Shown: positions 11,310 through 22,304 of the stretch, one piece after another
Position numbering within the stretch: position 1 is the stretch's first letter
Layout: each line of letters opens with the position of its first letter
From: Sulfurospirillaceae bacterium
GTDB taxonomy: Bacteria > Campylobacterota > Campylobacteria > Campylobacterales > Sulfurospirillaceae
Direction of reading: 5' to 3'
NCBI GenBank assembly: GCA_028684065.1
Contig: JAQUGO010000002.1
Coordinates: forward strand, 310,001 to 374,000
DNA length: 64,000 nucleotides
Program-made: the position numbers and the translations under genes
The notes under the pieces: model-generated
What the model saw: the letters and a program-made list of their open reading frames with translations, nothing else
The model's database searches: none
Told to the model about the DNA's origin: nothing

Positions 11310-12638
11310 ATGGTAGAGCGCTATGCAAGAGAAGAGATGAAAAAAAATTGGACAATTCAAGCAAAATATGATGCATGGCTAAAAGTTGAGAAAGCCGCTA
11401 CAAAAGCTTGGAATAAACTCGGTCTTGTTCCTAATGAAGATTGTGAAAAGATTTTAAAAAATGCTGCTTTCAATATTGACAGAATTGATGAAATCGAAAA
11501 AGTAACCAGACATGATGTGATTGCTTTCTTAACCAGTGTTGCGGATAGTTTAGGAGAAGAGAGTAGGTGGGTGCATTATGGAATGACCAGTTCAGATTGT
11601 ATCGATACTGCAGTAGCACTTCAAATGAGAGACTCCCTACATGTAATCCTTGAAGATGTTAAAATATTAATGGATTCTTTACAAAAAAGAGCTCAAGAAC
11701 ACAAAATGACATTGATGGTAGGTCGAAGTCATGGTATTCATGGTGAACCTATTACCTTTGGACTAGTACTTGCCATTTGGTATGAAGAAATTAAACGTAA
11801 TTTGAAAAATCTTGAACACGTGATGGAAGTCATTAGTGTTGGACAGATTAGTGGTGCCATGGGAAACATGGCTCACTCTCCAATAGAATTAGAAGAACTT
11901 GTATGTGCTGATTTAGGATTAAATCCAGCACCTGTCTCAAATCAAGTCATACAACGTGATAGATATGCAGCTCTTATGAATGCACTTGCACTTTTGGCAT
12001 CAAGTTGTGAAAAAATAGCTGTTGCCATTCGTCATTACCAAAGAACGGAAGTCTATGAGTGTGAAGAGTTTTTTGAAAAAGGGCAAAAAGGTAGCTCTGC
12101 AATGCCTCATAAACGTAATCCTGTCTTAAGCGAGAATATCACAGGACTTTGTCGCATGATACGTTCCTACGCCATGCCAGCAATGGAAAATGTAGCTCTT
12201 TGGCATGAACGAGATATCAGTCATAGCTCTGTTGAGAGGTTCATCCTTCCTGATGGATTTATCACAACTGACTTTATGCTATCTCGCCTTAATAGTGTTA
12301 TATCAAAACTTGTTGTCTACCCACATAATATGATGAGAAACCTCAATCTTACAGGTGGACTCGTCTTTTCCCAACGCATTTTACTTGAACTTCCACTAAA
12401 AGGTGTTTCAAGAGAAGATGCGTATAAAATAGTCCAAAGAAATGCTATGAAAGTATGGGAAGATTTACAACAAGGCAAACCTGCCCTTAATACAAAAGGC
12501 GAGAGTCTTTACCTTGAAAACTTATTAGGTGATGAGGACTTACGAGCAAAACTAAGTGAAACAGAAATTCGTGATTGCTTTAATTATGATTATTACACTA
12601 AAAATGTCGACAAAATTTTCAATAGGGTCTTTAAATAA
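11310..12638 (+). CDS. purB: Adenylosuccinate lyase
   Basis: MVERYAREEMKKNWT..., signature GSSAMPHKRNP. Confidence 0.96.
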   Translation: MVERYAREEMKKNWTIQAKYDAWLKVEKAATKAWNKLGLVPNEDCEKILKNAAFNIDRIDEIEKVTRHDVIAFLTSVADSLGEESRWVHYGMTSSDCIDTAVALQMRDSLHVILEDVKILMDSLQKRAQEHKMTLMVGRSHGIHGEPITFGLVLAIWYEEIKRNLKNLEHVMEVISVGQISGAMGNMAHSPIELEELVCADLGLNPAPVSNQVIQRDRYAALMNALALLASSCEKIAVAIRHYQRTEVYECEEFFEKGQKGSSAMPHKRNPVLSENITGLCRMIRSYAMPAMENVALWHERDISHSSVERFILPDGFITTDFMLSRLNSVISKLVVYPHNMMRNLNLTGGLVFSQRILLELPLKGVSREDAYKIVQRNAMKVWEDLQQGKPALNTKGESLYLENLLGDEDLRAKLSETEIRDCFNYDYYTKNVDKIFNRVFK

Positions 12639-15005
12639 ATGTTAACAGTACAAAAACGTAATGGCCGAATAGAGCCACTAGATATTTCAAAAATTCAAAA
12701 GTATACGAGTTCTGCCGTCAAAGGTTTGGAGAATGTTTCTCAAAGTGAATTAGAAGTCGATGCAAAAATTCAATTCCGAGATAAAATCACTACCGAAGAA
12801 ATTCAAAAGACACTCATTAAAACTGCCGTTGATAAAATAGATATCGACAGACCCAACTGGACATTTGTTGCTGCCAGACTTTTTCTATATGACCTCTATC
12901 ATAAAGTCAATGGGCATACCGGCTATGGTAGTTTTGCTGAATATTTGGAACGCGGTGAAAAAGAAGGACGTATTGTATTAGGACTTAAAACAAAATATGA
13001 CCTTAACGATTTAGAAGCGCACTTGAAACCTGAACGTGATTTACAGTTTAACTACTTAGGTCTCAAAACCTTACATGACCGTTATTTAATTAAAAATAAA
13101 CACGGACGACCTATAGAATTACCACAACATATGTTTATGGCAATTGCAATGTTTTTGGCGCAAAATGAACTCAACTCACAAGATTGGGCTAAGAAGTTTT
13201 ATGATGTAATCAGTAAATTTGAAGTGATGCTTGCCACACCTACTCTTTCAAATGCACGAACCCCAAGACACCAACTTAGTTCTTGTTATATTGGTAGTAC
13301 ACCTGATAATATTGAAGGCATTTTTGATTCATACAAAGAGATGTCACTTTTAAGTAAATTTGGTGGTGGCATTGGTTGGGATTGGAACTTAGTACGTTCT
13401 ATGGGTGGTATGATTGATGGGCATAAAAATGCAGCTGGGGGAATCATTCCTTTTTTAAAAATCACTAATGATATAGCGATTGCTGTTGATCAATTGGGTA
13501 CTCGAAAGGGTGCAATAGCCGTTTATTTAGAGCCTTGGCATATGGATGTCTCAGATTTTCTAGATTTAAAGAAAAACTCTGGAGAAGAACGTAGACGCGC
13601 ACATGATCTTTTCCCCGCTCTTTGGATTAACGATCTTTTTATGAAACGTGTTGAAGCAGATGCCATATGGACACTGTTTGACCCAGCCGAAGCGGGAGAT
13701 TTATCGGAAGTCTATGGTGAAGAATTTGAAAAACGTTATTGTGCTTATGAACAGAACAGTGCCATTTCAAAAGAATATGTCCCTGCAAAAGAATTATGGA
13801 AAAAGATTTTAACCAGTTATTTTGAAAGTGGAAGTCCTTTCCTATGTTTCAAAGATAATGCCAACAGAGCAAATCCAAACAGCCATACCGGTATTATTAG
13901 AAGTTCAAACTTATGCACAGAAATCTTTCAAAACACTGCACCAAATCATTACAAAGTTCGTGTTGTTTTCAATGATCAAAGCACCGCTCTTTTTGAAGAA
14001 GCTGACTTAGTCAAAGTTGATAGTGGAATGGTTAAAGAAGCTAAAAAAATTACGGCACTCGATAGCATTAATGGAAAAGATATCTTTATTGTTGAGAAAG
14101 AGATGATTGAAGGTAAAACGGCTGTGTGTAACCTTGCAAGCGTTAACCTTTCAAAAATCAATACCAAAGAGGATATTGAGCGGACTATTCCTATTGCAAT
14201 ACGTATGCTTGATAATGTTATTGACTTAAATTTCTACCCACACGCCAAAGTAAAACATACGAATCTTCTCTCTCGTGCTATTGGATTAGGCGTTATGGGC
14301 GAAGCACAAATGCTAGCGGAACAAAAAATCGAATGGGGTAGTTATGACCATTTTGCCAAGATTGATGAAGTCATGGAGGCTATCAGTTATAATGCCATTC
14401 ATGCTTCATCTAACCTAGCGATTGAAAAAGGTACTTACCCAGAATTTCTTGGTTCAAAATGGAGTAAAGGAGTATTCCCTATCGATACAGCAAATGATGA
14501 AGCGAAAAAGCTCGTTGACCGTGGAGGACTTTTTGGTTACATGTACGACTGGGAAAGCCTTCGAGAAAAAGTCAAAAAAAATGGTATGCGCAATGGCTAT
14601 TTAATGGCCATTGCACCCACAAGCTCAATCTCTATCTTAGTGGGAACCACTCAGACTATTGAACCTGTGTATAAACGTAAATGGTTTGAAGAAAATCTCT
14701 CAGGTATGATTCCAGTAGTTGTTCCAAATCTTAGCCCTGATACATGGAACTTTTACACACCAGCCTACGAACTTGACCAACGTGTGCTCATTAAAGCAGG
14801 GGCCATTCGTCAAAAATGGATTGATCAAGGGCAAAGCCTTAATATTTTTATAACACTCGATAAGGCTAGTGGTAAATACCTTAATGACATTTATATGTTA
14901 GGATGGAAGCTGGGTATCAAATCTACTTATTACCTTAGAAGTCAGTCGCCTGAAAATAAGTTAGAAGTTGCCGATAGAAGTATTGAATGTGAAGGTTGTC
15001 AATAA
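12639..15005 (+). CDS. nrdA: Ribonucleoside-diphosphate reductase subunit alpha (class I)
   Basis: N-terminal ATP-cone, SSCYIGSTPDNIEGI, NLCTEI, C-terminal CEGC. Confidence 0.95.
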   Translation: MLTVQKRNGRIEPLDISKIQKYTSSAVKGLENVSQSELEVDAKIQFRDKITTEEIQKTLIKTAVDKIDIDRPNWTFVAARLFLYDLYHKVNGHTGYGSFAEYLERGEKEGRIVLGLKTKYDLNDLEAHLKPERDLQFNYLGLKTLHDRYLIKNKHGRPIELPQHMFMAIAMFLAQNELNSQDWAKKFYDVISKFEVMLATPTLSNARTPRHQLSSCYIGSTPDNIEGIFDSYKEMSLLSKFGGGIGWDWNLVRSMGGMIDGHKNAAGGIIPFLKITNDIAIAVDQLGTRKGAIAVYLEPWHMDVSDFLDLKKNSGEERRRAHDLFPALWINDLFMKRVEADAIWTLFDPAEAGDLSEVYGEEFEKRYCAYEQNSAISKEYVPAKELWKKILTSYFESGSPFLCFKDNANRANPNSHTGIIRSSNLCTEIFQNTAPNHYKVRVVFNDQSTALFEEADLVKVDSGMVKEAKKITALDSINGKDIFIVEKEMIEGKTAVCNLASVNLSKINTKEDIERTIPIAIRMLDNVIDLNFYPHAKVKHTNLLSRAIGLGVMGEAQMLAEQKIEWGSYDHFAKIDEVMEAISYNAIHASSNLAIEKGTYPEFLGSKWSKGVFPIDTANDEAKKLVDRGGLFGYMYDWESLREKVKKNGMRNGYLMAIAPTSSISILVGTTQTIEPVYKRKWFEENLSGMIPVVVPNLSPDTWNFYTPAYELDQRVLIKAGAIRQKWIDQGQSLNIFITLDKASGKYLNDIYMLGWKLGIKSTYYLRSQSPENKLEVADRSIECEGCQ

Positions 15006-15020
15006 AAAAAAGGAATTGAA

Positions 15021-15998
15021 ATGACCTATAGAGCGCTAAGGGTTGAAGAAATTGATGGTCAATTTATAAGTTCTATTAAAGAATTATCGCTTGAAGCGCT
15101 GGACGTTAACGATGTACTCATTCGCATAAAATATGCAGCCTTGAATTATAAAGATGCCCTCAGTTGCATAGGTAATAAAGGTGTAACAAAAAACTATCCA
15201 CACACACCAGGTATTGACGGTGCCGGCGTAGTTGTTAGAAGTAATTGTGAAAAATTTAGTGTGGGCGATGAAGTAATTGTTACCAGCTTTGATTTGGGGA
15301 TGAACACCGATGGCGCTTTCAGCCAGTTTATTAGTGTACCCAAAGAATGGATTATTCCCTTACCTAAAACCTTAAACCTAAAAGAAGCCGTAGCGATTGG
15401 AACAGCAGGGCTCACTGCTGCTATTGGAGCCTATAAGCTTCTTGCAAATGGACAAACAAAAGGAAATTCTATTCTCATAACAGGCGCGAGTGGTGCTGTT
15501 GGTAGTTTTTGTGTGAAACTCTTTGCAAGTATTGGTTTTAAAGTTATTGCACTTAGTTCACGAGCCGACAATAGAGAATTTTTACTTTCTATTGGGGCAA
15601 ATGAAGTCATATTAAAAAGTGACTTTGAAATGAATAAAAAGAAACCTTTACTCTCTCCTCAATATGATGCGGCAATCGATGTTGTAGGAGGAGAAATTTT
15701 AGAAAATATACTTAAGCAGATTAAACCCGAAGGTAGTATTGCCATCTGTGGACTTGTTGCTTCACCAAACATACAAACAACAGTATTTCCTTTTATACTA
15801 CGAGGGATTAACCTTTTAGGCATTAATTCTGTCGAAATAACACAAGAGTTAAGACAGCAACTGTGGCATAAACTTGCCAATGAATGGAAAATTGATTTAA
15901 ATGCTATCATACATGAACATACTTTAGATGAAATTCCTTGTCTCGTTAACACAATGTTAGCAGGGAAAATTACTGGCAGAGGAATCATAAAACTGTGA
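15021..15998 (+). CDS. YhdH/AcuI-type quinone oxidoreductase (acrylyl-CoA reductase family)
   Basis: NYKDALSCIGNKGVTKNYPHTPGIDGAG, ITGASGAVGSFCVKL NAD(P)-binding motif. Confidence 0.88.
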   Translation: MTYRALRVEEIDGQFISSIKELSLEALDVNDVLIRIKYAALNYKDALSCIGNKGVTKNYPHTPGIDGAGVVVRSNCEKFSVGDEVIVTSFDLGMNTDGAFSQFISVPKEWIIPLPKTLNLKEAVAIGTAGLTAAIGAYKLLANGQTKGNSILITGASGAVGSFCVKLFASIGFKVIALSSRADNREFLLSIGANEVILKSDFEMNKKKPLLSPQYDAAIDVVGGEILENILKQIKPEGSIAICGLVASPNIQTTVFPFILRGINLLGINSVEITQELRQQLWHKLANEWKIDLNAIIHEHTLDEIPCLVNTMLAGKITGRGIIKL

Positions 15999-16699
15999 AA
16001 ATAATTGGCTTAATAGGTGGAATGAGCTGGGAATCAACTCTTACTTATTATAAACTGTTAAATGAAGGGATCAAAAAAAGATTAGGGGGGCTTCATAGTG
16101 CTAGAATCATACTGTATTCAGTAGACTTTGCTCCTATAGCACAATTACAAACCGAAGGAAAATGGGATGAAGCAGGAGAAATTTTATCTCATGCTGCAAG
16201 TTCTCTTGAACGAGCAGGTGCTGATATGATTTTACTGTGCACTAATACAATGCATAAAATAGCCCCACAAATCATAAAAAACTGTACTATTCCCTTGTTG
16301 CATATCGCCGAAGCAACAGGAACAGCATTATGCCATTACGGAGCAACACATGCCTTGCTATTAGGGACAAAATTTACTATGCAAGAACATTTTTATAAAG
16401 ATATCTTAACTATGCATCATATAAAAACGTGTGTCCCAAATCAAAGTGATACAGACCGTATCAATACTATCATTTTCAATGAACTTTGCCTCGGTATTAT
16501 AAAACAAGACTCTAAAGAAATATTTTTAGACATTATCCATAAACTAAAAAAAAATAATCCTACCATAGATTCCGTTATCTTAGGATGCACAGAAATTGGA
16601 CTTCTCCTAAAGCAAAATGACTCTGAACTGCCATTCTTTGATACAACAATTTTACATGTAAATGAAGCATTAAACAATTCTCTTAGCGCAACTAATTAA
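15995..16699 (+). CDS. Aspartate/glutamate racemase family protein
   Basis: IGLIGGMSWESTLTYY, LCTNTMHK, LGCTEIGLL cysteine motifs. Confidence 0.92.
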   Translation: MKIIGLIGGMSWESTLTYYKLLNEGIKKRLGGLHSARIILYSVDFAPIAQLQTEGKWDEAGEILSHAASSLERAGADMILLCTNTMHKIAPQIIKNCTIPLLHIAEATGTALCHYGATHALLLGTKFTMQEHFYKDILTMHHIKTCVPNQSDTDRINTIIFNELCLGIIKQDSKEIFLDIIHKLKKNNPTIDSVILGCTEIGLLLKQNDSELPFFDTTILHVNEALNNSLSATN

Positions 16700-16925
16700 T
16701 AACTATTAATTATAATAAACATTAATTAATATTAATATTTATTTTTTATTTTTTAGAATATAAAATCCTACTTAATAACTATATTATGGTAGTTTAACTA
16801 TTTAAGAAAATATCAAAAAAATACTCTATTTTATTTCCGTGACATAATAGTTTCACATTTATTTTTAAGTTTAATTAAATTTTTCTCACACTATAATCTA
16901 ACCTACTTTTATACTTAGGATTATC

Positions 16926-19040
16926 ATGCTGACTAAAGTACTCAAACGCGATGGAACAACCGAAGAATTTTTCCCTTATAAAATTGAAGATGCTATTAAA
17001 AAAGCTTTCAAAAGTGAAGGGGTTACTTATGATGAAAGTATCTTTAGAGAGATTTTAAAACGTATTGAAAAAAAACGTGTTGCTGCGGTTGAAGATTTTC
17101 AAGACATGATTGAACAAGAACTCTATAAAGGTCGCTATTTTGACATCATGCGTTCATTTATGCTCTATCGCCACACCCATAAAATGCAACGTGAACATAT
17201 TTATGGACTTAATGAAGATACAACTTACATCAATTCAACACAAACCATTGAAGAATACATTGGAAAGAGTGACTGGCGAATTAAAGCAAACTCCAATACG
17301 GGCTACTCGAACGCTGGACTAGTCAACAATACTGCAGGTAAAGTTATCGCAAACTATTGGCTCGACAAAATCTACTCGAAAGAGGAAGGTTTAGCACATC
17401 GCAACGGCGATTATCATATCCACGATCTGGATTGCCTTACAGCTTACTGTGCAGGTTGGAGTCTAAGAGTTTTACTGGATGAGGGTTTTAATGGGGTTCG
17501 TGGTCGTGTTGAAAGCCGTCCACCACAACATTTTAGAGAAGCGCTTGGTCAAATGGCAAACTTCTTAGGTATTTTACAAAGCGAGTGGGCAGGCGCACAA
17601 GCATTTAGCTCTTTTGATACTTACCTTGCCCCTTATGCTTTTAAAGATAAAATCTCTTATAAAGAGATTAAAAAAGCGATTCGAAGCTTTATTTATAACC
17701 TTAACGTTCCAGCTCGTTGGGGACAAAGTCCGTTTACTAATATTACGATTGACTGGAGTGTACCTTCTGATTTAGCAGGACAAATTCCAACATCAAGTCA
17801 AGTACATCTCTTTAAAAATATTAAAGACGCCGAACTCCTTGAAGAAGCAAAAAAGCGTGGTGTAAATGACTTGGAAGCTATGACGTACAAACATTTTCAA
17901 GCCGAAATGAATCTTATCAATAAAGCTTATTATGAAGTTATGACAGAGGGTGACAAAACAGGACAACCGTTCACTTTCCCTATCCCTACTGTCAATATTA
18001 CAGAAGATTTTGATTGGGATGGCGAAAATACCGATTTACTATTTGAGAATACAGCAAAAATCGGTTCATCCTATTTTCAAAACTTTGTAGGAAGCCAGTA
18101 CATTCGCAACGAGGAGGGAAAACTCGTTGAAAATCCAAAAGCCTATAAGCCTGGCCATGTTAGAAGTATGTGTTGTCGTTTACAACTCGATTTACGTGAG
18201 CTTTTAAAACGTGGTGGAGGTCTTTTTGGAAGTGCTGAGATGACAGGAAGCATCGGTGTTGTTACTCTCAATATGGCACGTCTGGGTTATTTATATAAAG
18301 GTGATAAAGCAGAATTAATGAAACACTTTGAATCGCTTATGGATTTAGCACAGTCTACCCTAGAAAAAAAACGCGTCTTTGTACAAGAAATGTATAATCG
18401 TGGACTTTATCCTTATACTGCGCGTTATTTACCAGGTTTTAACAGCCATTTTTCAACTATTGGTGTCAATGGTATCAATGAAATGATACGTAACTTTACG
18501 GATGATAAACATACCATTGCAGATGATTATGGAATGGAATTTGCTCATGAAATATTAGAGTTTATGCGTAATAAAATGGTCGCCTACCAAGAAGATACTG
18601 GCAACCTTTATAACCTTGAAGCAACACCAGCAGAGGGAACAACATATCGATTTGCAAAAGAAGATAAAAAACGTTATCCAGAAATTTTACAAGCAGGGAC
18701 AGGAGAAAATATCTATTATACTAACTCTTCCCAGTTACCTGCCAATTATACGGATGACCCATTTGAAGCACTTGATATGCAAGATGATTTACAGTGCGCC
18801 TATACGGGAGGCACAGTACTTCACCTTTATATGAAAGAACGCATTAGCTCATCAGAAGCATGCAAAAAATTAGTGAAAAATGTTATTAGCAATTACCGTA
18901 TGCCTTATTTAACCATCACACCAGTATTTTCAGTCTGTGAAAAACATGGTTATATCAGTGGTGAGCATGAATTTTGCCCAAAATGTGATGCCGAATTGAT
19001 ACACAAATATACACAAGGAGATAATAATGAGTCAAACTGA
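16926..19040 (+). CDS. nrdD: Anaerobic ribonucleoside-triphosphate reductase catalytic chain, lacking the C-terminal glycyl-radical motif
   Basis: ATP-cone plus NrdD core (NVPARWGQSPFTNITIDW); ends after the Zn-site CEKHGYISGEHEFCPKC without an RVxGY motif. Confidence 0.93.
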   Translation: MLTKVLKRDGTTEEFFPYKIEDAIKKAFKSEGVTYDESIFREILKRIEKKRVAAVEDFQDMIEQELYKGRYFDIMRSFMLYRHTHKMQREHIYGLNEDTTYINSTQTIEEYIGKSDWRIKANSNTGYSNAGLVNNTAGKVIANYWLDKIYSKEEGLAHRNGDYHIHDLDCLTAYCAGWSLRVLLDEGFNGVRGRVESRPPQHFREALGQMANFLGILQSEWAGAQAFSSFDTYLAPYAFKDKISYKEIKKAIRSFIYNLNVPARWGQSPFTNITIDWSVPSDLAGQIPTSSQVHLFKNIKDAELLEEAKKRGVNDLEAMTYKHFQAEMNLINKAYYEVMTEGDKTGQPFTFPIPTVNITEDFDWDGENTDLLFENTAKIGSSYFQNFVGSQYIRNEEGKLVENPKAYKPGHVRSMCCRLQLDLRELLKRGGGLFGSAEMTGSIGVVTLNMARLGYLYKGDKAELMKHFESLMDLAQSTLEKKRVFVQEMYNRGLYPYTARYLPGFNSHFSTIGVNGINEMIRNFTDDKHTIADDYGMEFAHEILEFMRNKMVAYQEDTGNLYNLEATPAEGTTYRFAKEDKKRYPEILQAGTGENIYYTNSSQLPANYTDDPFEALDMQDDLQCAYTGGTVLHLYMKERISSSEACKKLVKNVISNYRMPYLTITPVFSVCEKHGYISGEHEFCPKCDAELIHKYTQGDNNESN

Positions 19041-19191
19041 ACTGTTGGAAAAAATAAAAAGTGAACGCACTAAGTGTATTGTTTATACACGAGTAATGGG
19101 CTACCATAGACCAGTAGAAAGCTTTAATGTTGGCAAAACTGGTGAACACAAAGAACGAGTACAATTTGTTGAGCGCGACTGCCATAAATAA
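19027..19191 (+). CDS. Stand-alone glycyl-radical domain of class III RNR (54 aa)
   Basis: MSQTELLEKIKSERTKCIVYTRVMGYHRPVESFNVGKTGEHKERVQFVERDCHK; matches the canonical NrdD C-terminus (R-V-x-G-Y); AAGGAG at 19015-19020; 14-nt overlap with nrdD in another frame. Confidence 0.88.
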   Translation: MSQTELLEKIKSERTKCIVYTRVMGYHRPVESFNVGKTGEHKERVQFVERDCHK

Positions 19192-19861
19192 GCCTATTTA
19201 TAGTATTACGCCTTTTACGACGCTAGACTATCCCAAACATCTAGCGTCTATTTTATGGTTTGCCAAATGCAATATGGCATGCCCATACTGTTATAATCCA
19301 CGTATTGTTAGAGAGAAGGGTAGCATCAGCACGGAGGAAGCATTAACCTTCCTTTCGACTCGAAAAGGGCGTCTTGATGGCGTTGTGCTTAGTGGCGGGG
19401 AATGCACTCTTTATCCTTTTCTTGAAGATTTTTGTACTCATATTAAAGCTTTAGGTTTTTCTATCAAAATTGACACCAATGGTTCTCAGCCTAGTGTCAT
19501 TCAAAGCCTTGTTGAGCAAAAGCTTATTGATTATATAGCTCTTGATTATAAGGCACCGCAAGAAAAGTTTACAACGATTACTGCACATAAAAATTTTGAA
19601 CCTTTTTCTGAAACATTAAATTACCTTATTCACTCTCGTTTTCCTTTTGAAGCTAGAACAACATTACATAGTGATTTTCTCACCACAAATGATATTAATA
19701 CAATCATTGATGATTTGAGTCGCCGTCATTATCCTCACACGTATTATCTCCAAAACTATTTGCATGTAGAAGAAACCTTAGGTGCTACAAAAATGCAACA
19801 AAATAAGTTTGATTTGAGTTTATTAACCCAAACACTACCTATAGAATTAAGAAATTTTTGA
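19169..19861 (+). CDS. nrdG: Anaerobic RNR activating protein (radical SAM)
   Basis: CNMACPYCYNP radical SAM cluster motif, LSGGECTLYP; TTG start at 19169 gives SATAINKPIYSITPFTTLDYP. Confidence 0.88.
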   Translation: MSATAINKPIYSITPFTTLDYPKHLASILWFAKCNMACPYCYNPRIVREKGSISTEEALTFLSTRKGRLDGVVLSGGECTLYPFLEDFCTHIKALGFSIKIDTNGSQPSVIQSLVEQKLIDYIALDYKAPQEKFTTITAHKNFEPFSETLNYLIHSRFPFEARTTLHSDFLTTNDINTIIDDLSRRHYPHTYYLQNYLHVEETLGATKMQQNKFDLSLLTQTLPIELRNF

Positions 19862-19904
19862 TAAAATAGAACTCTTTTTTAGATAAATGATTTAGGAATA
19901 ACCA

Positions 19905-20927
19905 ATGGAAAGAAAAAAAATATACAATCCAAGCTCAGATGAAAATTTGAATGATCGCAGGGTTTTTGGTGGGAATCCTCACGGAATTTTAAATTTTACA
20001 AAAGCAAAATACACATGGGCTTTAAAGTTATGGGATATGATGGAAGGTAATACATGGTTTCCTAAAGAGGTCGATACTACCAAAGATGTTATGGATTACA
20101 ACCGAAATCTTACCGATGCAGAAAAGCGCATGTATGACCTTGTTTGGTCCCAACTCATTAGCATGGACAGTTTTCAAACTAATAATTTAGCAGATAATAT
20201 CAATCCCTATATTACAGCACCTGAAATCAATGCCTGCCTAGCACGTCAAGCCTACGAAGAAGCCAACCACTCAAAATCGTATGCTGTTATGGTAGAGGCG
20301 ATTTGTGATAATACCGATTTAATTTATGAGATGGAAAAGCACGATGACGTTTTGCGTCGTAAGAATGACTATATCTCAAGTGTTTATGAAGAGTTGGCGG
20401 GCGATGTAACCGAAGAAAAAATAGTATTAGCTATGTTTGCCAATCAAATTTTAGAAGGTATCTACTTTTATTCAGGCTTTACTGCTATTTACGCCCTTGC
20501 GCGAGCGGGAAGGATGCTAGGAAGTGCCCAAATGATACGCTTTATCCAACGCGATGAAATTACACACCTTTTAATCTTCCAAAACATGATTAATTCTGTA
20601 AAAAAAGAGAGACCTGAACTTTTTACCGACGCACTCAAAACAAAAGTATGCGAAATGTTCCAAAAAGCAGGTGACCTTGAAATAGAGTGGGGTAGATACA
20701 TTACGCAAAATCAAATCATGGGTTTTACGGATGATATTATTGAAGAATATATTCATTATCTTATTGATGAGCGTTTAACAGCTGTAGGTTTTGAGAAAAT
20801 ATACAATGCCAAACACCCTATCAAATGGGTTGATGATTTTTCAAAATTTAACGACCAAAAAACAAACTTTTTTGAAGGAAATGTCTCAAATTACAGTAAG
20901 GGCAGTCTCTCTTTTGATGACTTCTAG
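19905..20927 (+). CDS. nrdB: Ribonucleoside-diphosphate reductase subunit beta (class I)
   Basis: EEANHSKSY, diiron ligands (E/H), RDEITHL. Confidence 0.95.
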   Translation: MERKKIYNPSSDENLNDRRVFGGNPHGILNFTKAKYTWALKLWDMMEGNTWFPKEVDTTKDVMDYNRNLTDAEKRMYDLVWSQLISMDSFQTNNLADNINPYITAPEINACLARQAYEEANHSKSYAVMVEAICDNTDLIYEMEKHDDVLRRKNDYISSVYEELAGDVTEEKIVLAMFANQILEGIYFYSGFTAIYALARAGRMLGSAQMIRFIQRDEITHLLIFQNMINSVKKERPELFTDALKTKVCEMFQKAGDLEIEWGRYITQNQIMGFTDDIIEEYIHYLIDERLTAVGFEKIYNAKHPIKWVDDFSKFNDQKTNFFEGNVSNYSKGSLSFDDF

Positions 20928-21648
20928 TCCTACTTTATGTGCCCTACAATTTGCCTTTGAGTTTCAATCGTTTGAAGAAAACTTTGCAACACTGAGGCAA
21001 TTGATAGAAAAAACCCCTAAAAATGCTATTGTTTTAGCGCCTGAGCTTTGCTTAAGTGGCTATTGTTACCAAGATATGGACAAAGCGGCTCTTTTTTCCA
21101 ATGCCATTATGGGAGAGCTTAAAAAACTCTCTTTGGATAAAACGATTGGGTTAACACTGATTGAGCAAACACCTCAAGGGTTTTTCAATAACTTTAAACT
21201 CTTTCACCATGGAGAAATCATTCTCACAAGAGCCAAAGCAAAACTCTTTACTTTGGGCGATGAAAATGATTACTTTCAAGAGGGTAATACCGATGACATC
21301 ACTCTTTTGGAGGTTGATGGAATAAAAATTGCTGTACTTATCTGTTTTGAGCTTCGCTTTACAGAACTTTGGGAGCAAATCAAAGGTGCCGATATCGTTT
21401 TACTCCCTGCATTTTGGGGAAAACTACGAAAAGGGCATCTTGAAACACTCTCTCAAGCATTGGCTATTGCTAATCAAACGTGGGTTTTGTGTGCTAATAG
21501 CAATGGTGATGAGATGGCCGCTGCAAGTGGTATTATTTCTCCTTTTGGTGACACATTTCGTGATGATACACAGGCATTGCTTATGCATCCATTTGAGAAA
21601 ACTGAAATAAAAAAAATGCGACGCTATATTGATATAGGATTACAATAA
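20917..21648 (+). CDS. Carbon-nitrogen hydrolase (nitrilase family)
   Basis: APELCLSGYCY, CFELRF, E-K-C triad; start ATG 20917 overlaps end of nrdB. Confidence 0.85.
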   Translation: MTSSPTLCALQFAFEFQSFEENFATLRQLIEKTPKNAIVLAPELCLSGYCYQDMDKAALFSNAIMGELKKLSLDKTIGLTLIEQTPQGFFNNFKLFHHGEIILTRAKAKLFTLGDENDYFQEGNTDDITLLEVDGIKIAVLICFELRFTELWEQIKGADIVLLPAFWGKLRKGHLETLSQALAIANQTWVLCANSNGDEMAAASGIISPFGDTFRDDTQALLMHPFEKTEIKKMRRYIDIGLQ

Positions 21649-22304
21649 ATGCTTGATTCTGCTCATTTTCAAACAAAAATACGTCTTCAAAAAAATAAAA
21701 AAATGGCTGATGACATTGCTAAAGTATGTACTCTTTCTCCTAGCGTGTATGAAGCTTTTTGCAAGAGTGAGCGTGAACTTTTTGTACCCCTTGGTTTTAG
21801 TATGCATGCTTATAGACTTGATGCCCTTCCTTTGGCGGCAAACCAATGGATTAGTTCTCCTTTAACAGTTGCAAAGATGACTGAAGCCCTTACATGTAAA
21901 GGGGCTGATTCTGTCTTAGAAATCGGTTGCGGTAGTGGCTATCAAGCATTAATTTTGAGCAAACTAATTAGGCGTGTTTTTACCATTGAACGTATTGAAC
22001 GATTGTTAAGAGAAGCGAAAGAGCGTTTTAAATCTTTAGGGATTAGTACGGTTCATACACGATTTGATGATGGCCAAAATGGATGGCGAGAATTTGCACC
22101 TTATGACCGTATACTCTTCTCTGCTTCAATCCCCGAAGTATCACAAAAAATTTTTGAACAACTTAAAATTGGTGGAATTTTGGTCGCACCCATTGAAAAA
22201 GGGGATAAACAAATTATTACACGCTTTTGCAAAACAGCAACAGGTATTATCAAAGAAGAGCTTGATGACTGCCTCTTTGTACCCGTCAAAAATGGTAGAG
22301 AATT

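Follow-up and report, generated by a model that had tools for sequence, protein, structure and literature searches.

Class III ribonucleotide reductase with a putative, separately encoded glycyl-radical subunit in Campylobacterota and in phages

GrcA has been shown by reconstitution experiments to serve as a radical cofactor of pyruvate formate-lyase. The phage parallel of GrcA for the same enzyme is vs.6 of T4 (PMC1524935). Among ribonucleotide reductases (RNRs), a review lists split chains for NrdA and NrdJ only and describes class III as needing no second subunit (PMC3267527); in the fused enzymes of this class, the radical domain must flip out for NrdG and then return (PMC12662201). Given this view, together with a large RNR phylogeny that dropped sequences of <400 residues (PMC9531940), a class III enzyme with a small separate radical domain would be overlooked. 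Our literature search found no description of such a split, although Siedow 1999 (C. necator nrdDG) and Wei 2014 (Neisseria bacilliformis NrdD) could mention it. The small ORF described below is named nrdD by NCBI and is thus visible in databases.

The 64,000-nucleotide stretch of DNA analyzed here (the window) belongs to a Sulfurospirillaceae genome of 2.67 Mb that is 99.9% complete. Its NrdD locus consists of two ORFs followed by nrdG, as listed in Table 1. The large chain comprises an ATP-cone, the barrel, and the zinc site without a glycyl-radical loop, and its stop codon lies 17 codons past the zinc site. No RVxGY motif was found in nrdD (16926-19040); the motif is present on the second ORF, which encodes TRVMGYHRPVESFNVGK and has its radical glycine at Gly25 (codon 19099-19101) within KCIVYTRVMGYHRPVESFNVGKTGEHKERVQF. 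Lying in the +1 frame, this ORF shares 14 nt with the end of nrdD and also overlaps the annotated start of nrdG; judging from the N-termini of relatives, the true nrdG start probably lies ~40 nt downstream. Together, the two ORFs tile PF13597 almost without a gap (545 bits for positions 2-529 and 29.2 bits, against a cut-off of 26.2, for positions 532-562), and this tiling, along with the adjoining NrdG2 gene, makes their pairing more than chance. The locus thus has the NRDD barrel, the zinc-site segment after the barrel, and the dedicated radical-SAM activase NrdG of a class III enzyme but lacks the RVxGY loop on the same polypeptide. The original prediction, that nrdD ends after its zinc site without RVxGY and that a 54-aa second-frame ORF, which has AAGGAG 6 nt upstream of its ATG and overlaps the nrdG start, is the NrdD C-terminus, was borne out by the sequence and by the PF13597 positions. 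No other NrdD, fused or split, was found in the 99.9% complete genome, and an Rfam search of 12000-22000 gave no match. Class I nrdA (12639-15005; PF02867, 579 bits) and nrdB (19905-20927; PF00268, 245 bits) flank the class III genes. Aerobic and anaerobic RNRs hence share one cluster, and nrdB follows nrdG at four other loci as well.

Table 1. Features of the class III RNR locus in the window
Feature	Position	Strand	Evidence or remark
nrdD catalytic chain, 704 aa	16926..19040	+	PF03477 at 4-86; PF13597 positions 2-529; NF006126 1085 bits
MCCR finger-loop motif, radical cysteine region	18168..18179	+	sequence; marks NrdDh4-like clade
Zinc-site segment CEKHGYISGEHEFCPKC, C-x2-H ... C-x2-C, on large chain	18936..18986	+	sequence
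Shine-Dalgarno AAGGAG of small ORF	19015..19020	+	6 nt 5' of ATG; Shine-Dalgarno in nearly all relatives
Putative glycyl-radical subunit, 54 aa	19027..19191	+	PF13597 positions 532-562, 29.2 bits; same ORF across genus
nrdG, NrdG2-type radical-SAM activase	19127..19861	+	TIGR02495 181 bits, cut-off 131

In 24 genomes of the genus, the main PF13597 match ended at about profile positions 507-537 and was followed by a separate short-frame match, the exception being one genome whose contig ends inside nrdD. Both pieces are under strong purifying selection at the protein level, with 2888 synonymous to 270 nonsynonymous codon differences among 21 genus members. A profile built from ten genus peptides was run on 397 Campylobacterota genomes. 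The peptide was found in 185 of them, representing 42 of 68 genera, with a Shine-Dalgarno sequence in nearly all relatives; nearly all of the matches listed were open frames of 51-90 aa. A PF13597 match to NrdD was present in 207 of the 397 genomes, and the split recurs in most Campylobacterota nrdD loci. Fused NrdDs in the phylum are mostly of another, more distant type (17 genomes; ~23% identity at two loci), and fused members of the split clade occurred in three genomes. In one genome, a frameshift disrupts an additional nrdD copy (L081:708-3864) whose peptide and nrdG look intact. In another, a phage-like contig within a metagenome bin encodes NrdG, an intein-containing PhoH, and a fused NrdD into which an intein has apparently inserted. 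An error of sequencing or assembly, or a pseudogene in decay, which the +1-frame overlap would resemble if seen as a 1-nt slip in one genome, is a negligible prospect given a strongly selected split shared by the genus and by 42 genera, and neither the 1-nt error nor the second full-length nrdD that had been named as decisive against the prediction was found, since relatives are split alike and this nrdD is the only one in the genome.

The arrangement of the two genes varies widely. From the nrdD stop to the peptide start, the distance in Campylobacterota is -4, -8, -14, -23, or +12 to +1160 nt; all three frame offsets occur among the split loci of the phylum, where nearly all small ORFs have their own Shine-Dalgarno sequence, and outside the phylum the three offsets number 21/19/21. 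PAC_bac-like (PF21758) and NifU_N (PF01592) genes lie between nrdD and the peptide gene at three loci, with several families represented, and at one further locus the peptide gene is placed beyond nrdG. In seven Campylobacteraceae-like genomes, nrdD is unlinked, at least tens of kb from the peptide gene, which directly adjoins nrdG in each. With nrdD far off while the small gene stays with nrdG, the peptide must act in trans. A programmed frameshift or stop read-through could join the ORFs into one conventional NrdD, so that the peptide is never made alone, and the short overlaps in the genus, as well as some genomes with both ORFs in frame around a single stop, would fit such recoding. However, the offsets 0, 1, and 2 are about equally frequent outside Campylobacterota and variable inside, gaps of >1000 nt hold whole genes, the small ORF has its own Shine-Dalgarno sequence, and unlinked and prophage copies cannot be joined to nrdD. 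Recoding was therefore rejected on the frame statistics and the unlinked genes, and we regard it as highly improbable. We are highly confident, from gene arrangement, that the radical subunit would be a separate trans-acting protein; the corresponding part of the original prediction is strongly supported by the conservation of the split, the full set of frame relations, the unlinked loci, and the phage copies described below.

The split extends well beyond Campylobacterota. Among plasmid matches, it was recognized by annotation in Cupriavidus necator H16 pHG1 (676 aa plus 66 aa plus NrdG), Bradyrhizobium, and Sulfuricurvum and by sequence in C. metallidurans, Paracoccus, and Cereibacter. In a motif scan of a sample of species genomes, the matches listed included split loci from Pseudomonadota (Pseudomonas, Cupriavidus), Bacteroidota, Verrucomicrobiota, Lentisphaerota, Omnitrophota, Elusimicrobiota, Patescibacteria-type bins, and one actinobacterial bin, whereas fused loci among them were mainly from Actinomycetota and Rickettsiales. 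In this sample, where several phyla come from metagenome bins only and contigs may be misassigned, the split appears to span about eight phyla. Genomes of Pseudomonas, Flavobacterium, Akkermansia, Stutzerimonas, and Hydrogenophaga hold a single split NrdD, and when six named species were checked across their whole genomes, no additional NrdD turned up. Within the order that includes Pseudomonas brassicacearum, NrdD occurred in 22 of 146 genomes and was split in ~15 of these. One NrdD (G504:C163:15337-17079) contains nine in-frame TGA codons, which suggests that TGA is recoded in that genome or contig.

Nearly all large chains examined share the MCCR finger-loop motif, the motif given for the RNRdb2 subclass NrdDh4 in the subclass account of Aurelius et al. 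2015 (PMC4493059). Judged by this motif, the split NrdDs appear to form one MCCR, NrdDh4-like clade. A quick, unrooted tree of 91 large chains (77 split and 14 fused) required six changes of the split/fused label, at least five of which were forced by well-supported branches, with fused chains nested among split ones. Leaving the position of the root aside, the split thus appears to be old and re-fusion recurrent, which does not prove the split ancestral. Because re-fusion has occurred several times, separateness would not be indispensable.

The newest part of the finding is the free-standing phage copies. A scan of IMG/VR with the ten-peptide profile returned 169 relatives; at 79 of the best 80 loci, the peptide stood without nrdD or nrdG within up to 10 kb on each side, and the remaining one held the whole operon. 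Many of these loci are near-duplicates, and 38 distinct cores were counted. Neighboring genes encode endolysin, holin, spanin, tape measure, Mu B, Gam, head closure, terminase, tail fiber, and DNA polymerase, and at ~11 of 30 loci examined the peptide adjoins a holin, endolysin, amidase, or spanin gene. A lysis-cassette (late-gene) position of this kind is unexpected for a gene that serves dNTP supply. Extra prophage-like copies were present in six Campylobacterota genomes, one of them C. concisus and another with two such copies, all of which already hold their own host copy. Elsewhere in the phylum, an orphan peptide gene (L032:2943-3173) has neighbors of unassigned family and possibly sits in an unrecognized mobile element. 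The phage peptides come from IMG/VR and prophages, and for two host-type queries INPHARED gave no match to a free-standing peptide in characterized phages. A scan with the main chain found 72 viral loci, only ~21 of which had a split main chain with an adjacent peptide; capture of host operons was rejected as the source of most phage copies on this count against the 79 orphan-peptide loci. A group of viral contigs encodes a split NrdD of the MCCR type in its own right, and the peptide frame that immediately follows it measures 77-96 aa.

Residues R, M, G, Y, H, R, and P are conserved in the phage peptides, which for the loop is partly ascertainment, as the scan pattern includes VMGYHRP or TKCIVYT; the phage peptides also keep the downstream N, G, K, E, and R, which lie outside the pattern. 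Phage peptides might be decoys, tying up NrdG or the NrdD of the host to inhibit or hijack rather than activate, and late shutdown of host metabolism would fit the lysis-cassette position. A decoy would be expected to lose the radical residues, but the glycine and the residues around it are invariant in the 38 distinct phage cores, which makes this reading unlikely. The orphan viral peptide instead suggests a swappable plug-in part, and we slightly favor the idea that phages supply the peptide to the host enzyme.

Taken as a whole, the locus can with good confidence be read as a two-subunit class III RNR in which the peptide would be the radical-bearing subunit. The 54-aa peptide is predicted to be an obligate subunit and the sole glycyl-radical domain of the enzyme. 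The large chain would be catalytically empty until docking of the ~54-residue peptide brings its glycine loop into the barrel, where the active-site cysteines lie. NrdG would place the radical on the peptide and may do so while the peptide is free or loosely docked, with docking to follow, because the small gene remains beside nrdG where nrdD has relocated. Cleavage by O2 at the radical glycine would destroy only the 54-aa part, and a fresh copy could take the place of the cut peptide while the 80-kDa chain is kept. Phages that carry only the peptide might use it in infected cells to turn on or revive the enzyme of the host. That the split enzyme works in vivo is very probable, because the plasmid locus on pHG1 is split and nrdDG there is described as essential for complete denitrification of C. 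necator H16 (PMC2864759, citing Siedow 1999). An AlphaFold model of a read-through Flavobacterium pair was mediocre (pLDDT 70.9, pTM 0.68), too low to judge docking; a PDB fold search with the model confirmed the NrdD fold and nothing more, and a PDB single-sequence search with the peptide gave no match.

The alternative that survives best is a neutral accident, in which the peptide stays tightly bound for good as a subunit without turnover or exchange and the phage copies are passengers. The split is old and was re-fused several times, and the overlapping start and stop codons in many operons suggest 1:1 synthesis, as a neutral origin would have it; yet the catalytic residues are conserved in the free-standing copies of diverse phages, these copies greatly outnumber phage split operons, and the small gene partners nrdG, not nrdD, when the genes part. 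We consider such an accident possible but doubtful. An exchangeable radical-bearing subunit that phages supply to the host enzyme is the likeliest function. Oxygen repair as the selective reason for the split is evenly balanced in our judgment. The fuller scheme, in which phages plug the subunit into host NrdD to start or repair anaerobic dNTP synthesis and the host peptide is a consumable after oxygen damage, is offered tentatively, at a little short of even chances. If true, a virus supplies a ~50-residue radical carrier in place of an enzyme, and phages would have in it an auxiliary metabolic gene of very small size. The split occurs in Pseudomonas, Akkermansia, Campylobacter, and Cupriavidus, and a detachable radical subunit would allow direct study of the access of NrdG to the glycine, of loop docking, and of whether a new peptide can revive an O2-killed enzyme.

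Compared with the class III NrdD/NrdG systems of E. coli, T4, Prevotella copri, Streptococcus thermophilus, and Thermotoga, the ATP-cone, PF13597 barrel, zinc site, radical cysteine loop, RVxGY radical loop, and neighboring radical-SAM activase are alike. The difference is that the radical loop here is on a separate 54-aa polypeptide, whereas in solved class III structures it is on the same chain (PMC11226230). NrdDh4 shares the MCCR finger-loop motif with the members examined, and its account in the subclass description of PMC4493059 does not mention a separate radical domain. Split class II NrdJa/NrdJb of Pseudomonas and split NrdA of phage Aeh1 likewise divide an RNR chain into two cooperating polypeptides (PMC3267527); they are of other classes with other split sites, and neither splits off the radical carrier. 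The pyruvate formate-lyase cofactors GrcA/YfiD and T4 vs.6 (Y06I) resemble the peptide in form, being small, free-standing glycyl-radical domains that act in trans and are phage-borne too. The peptide appears to share the GrcA/YfiD trait genetically, as a small separate protein in trans (unlinked genes and orphan copies). Membership in the GrcA family was rejected, as Pfam assigned the peptides of the window, hosts, and phages to PF13597 only, with no significant match to the PFL-type Gly_radical domain. The predicted analogy to GrcA thus stands for a small separate part in trans but not for a reserve that accompanies an intact copy: the enzyme for which GrcA is a spare has a radical domain of its own, whereas the peptide would be the only such domain of its enzyme, and its target is an RNR. 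GrcA-like replacement of O2-damaged modules is plausible all the same, with indirect backing from the prophage copies and the linkage to nrdG.
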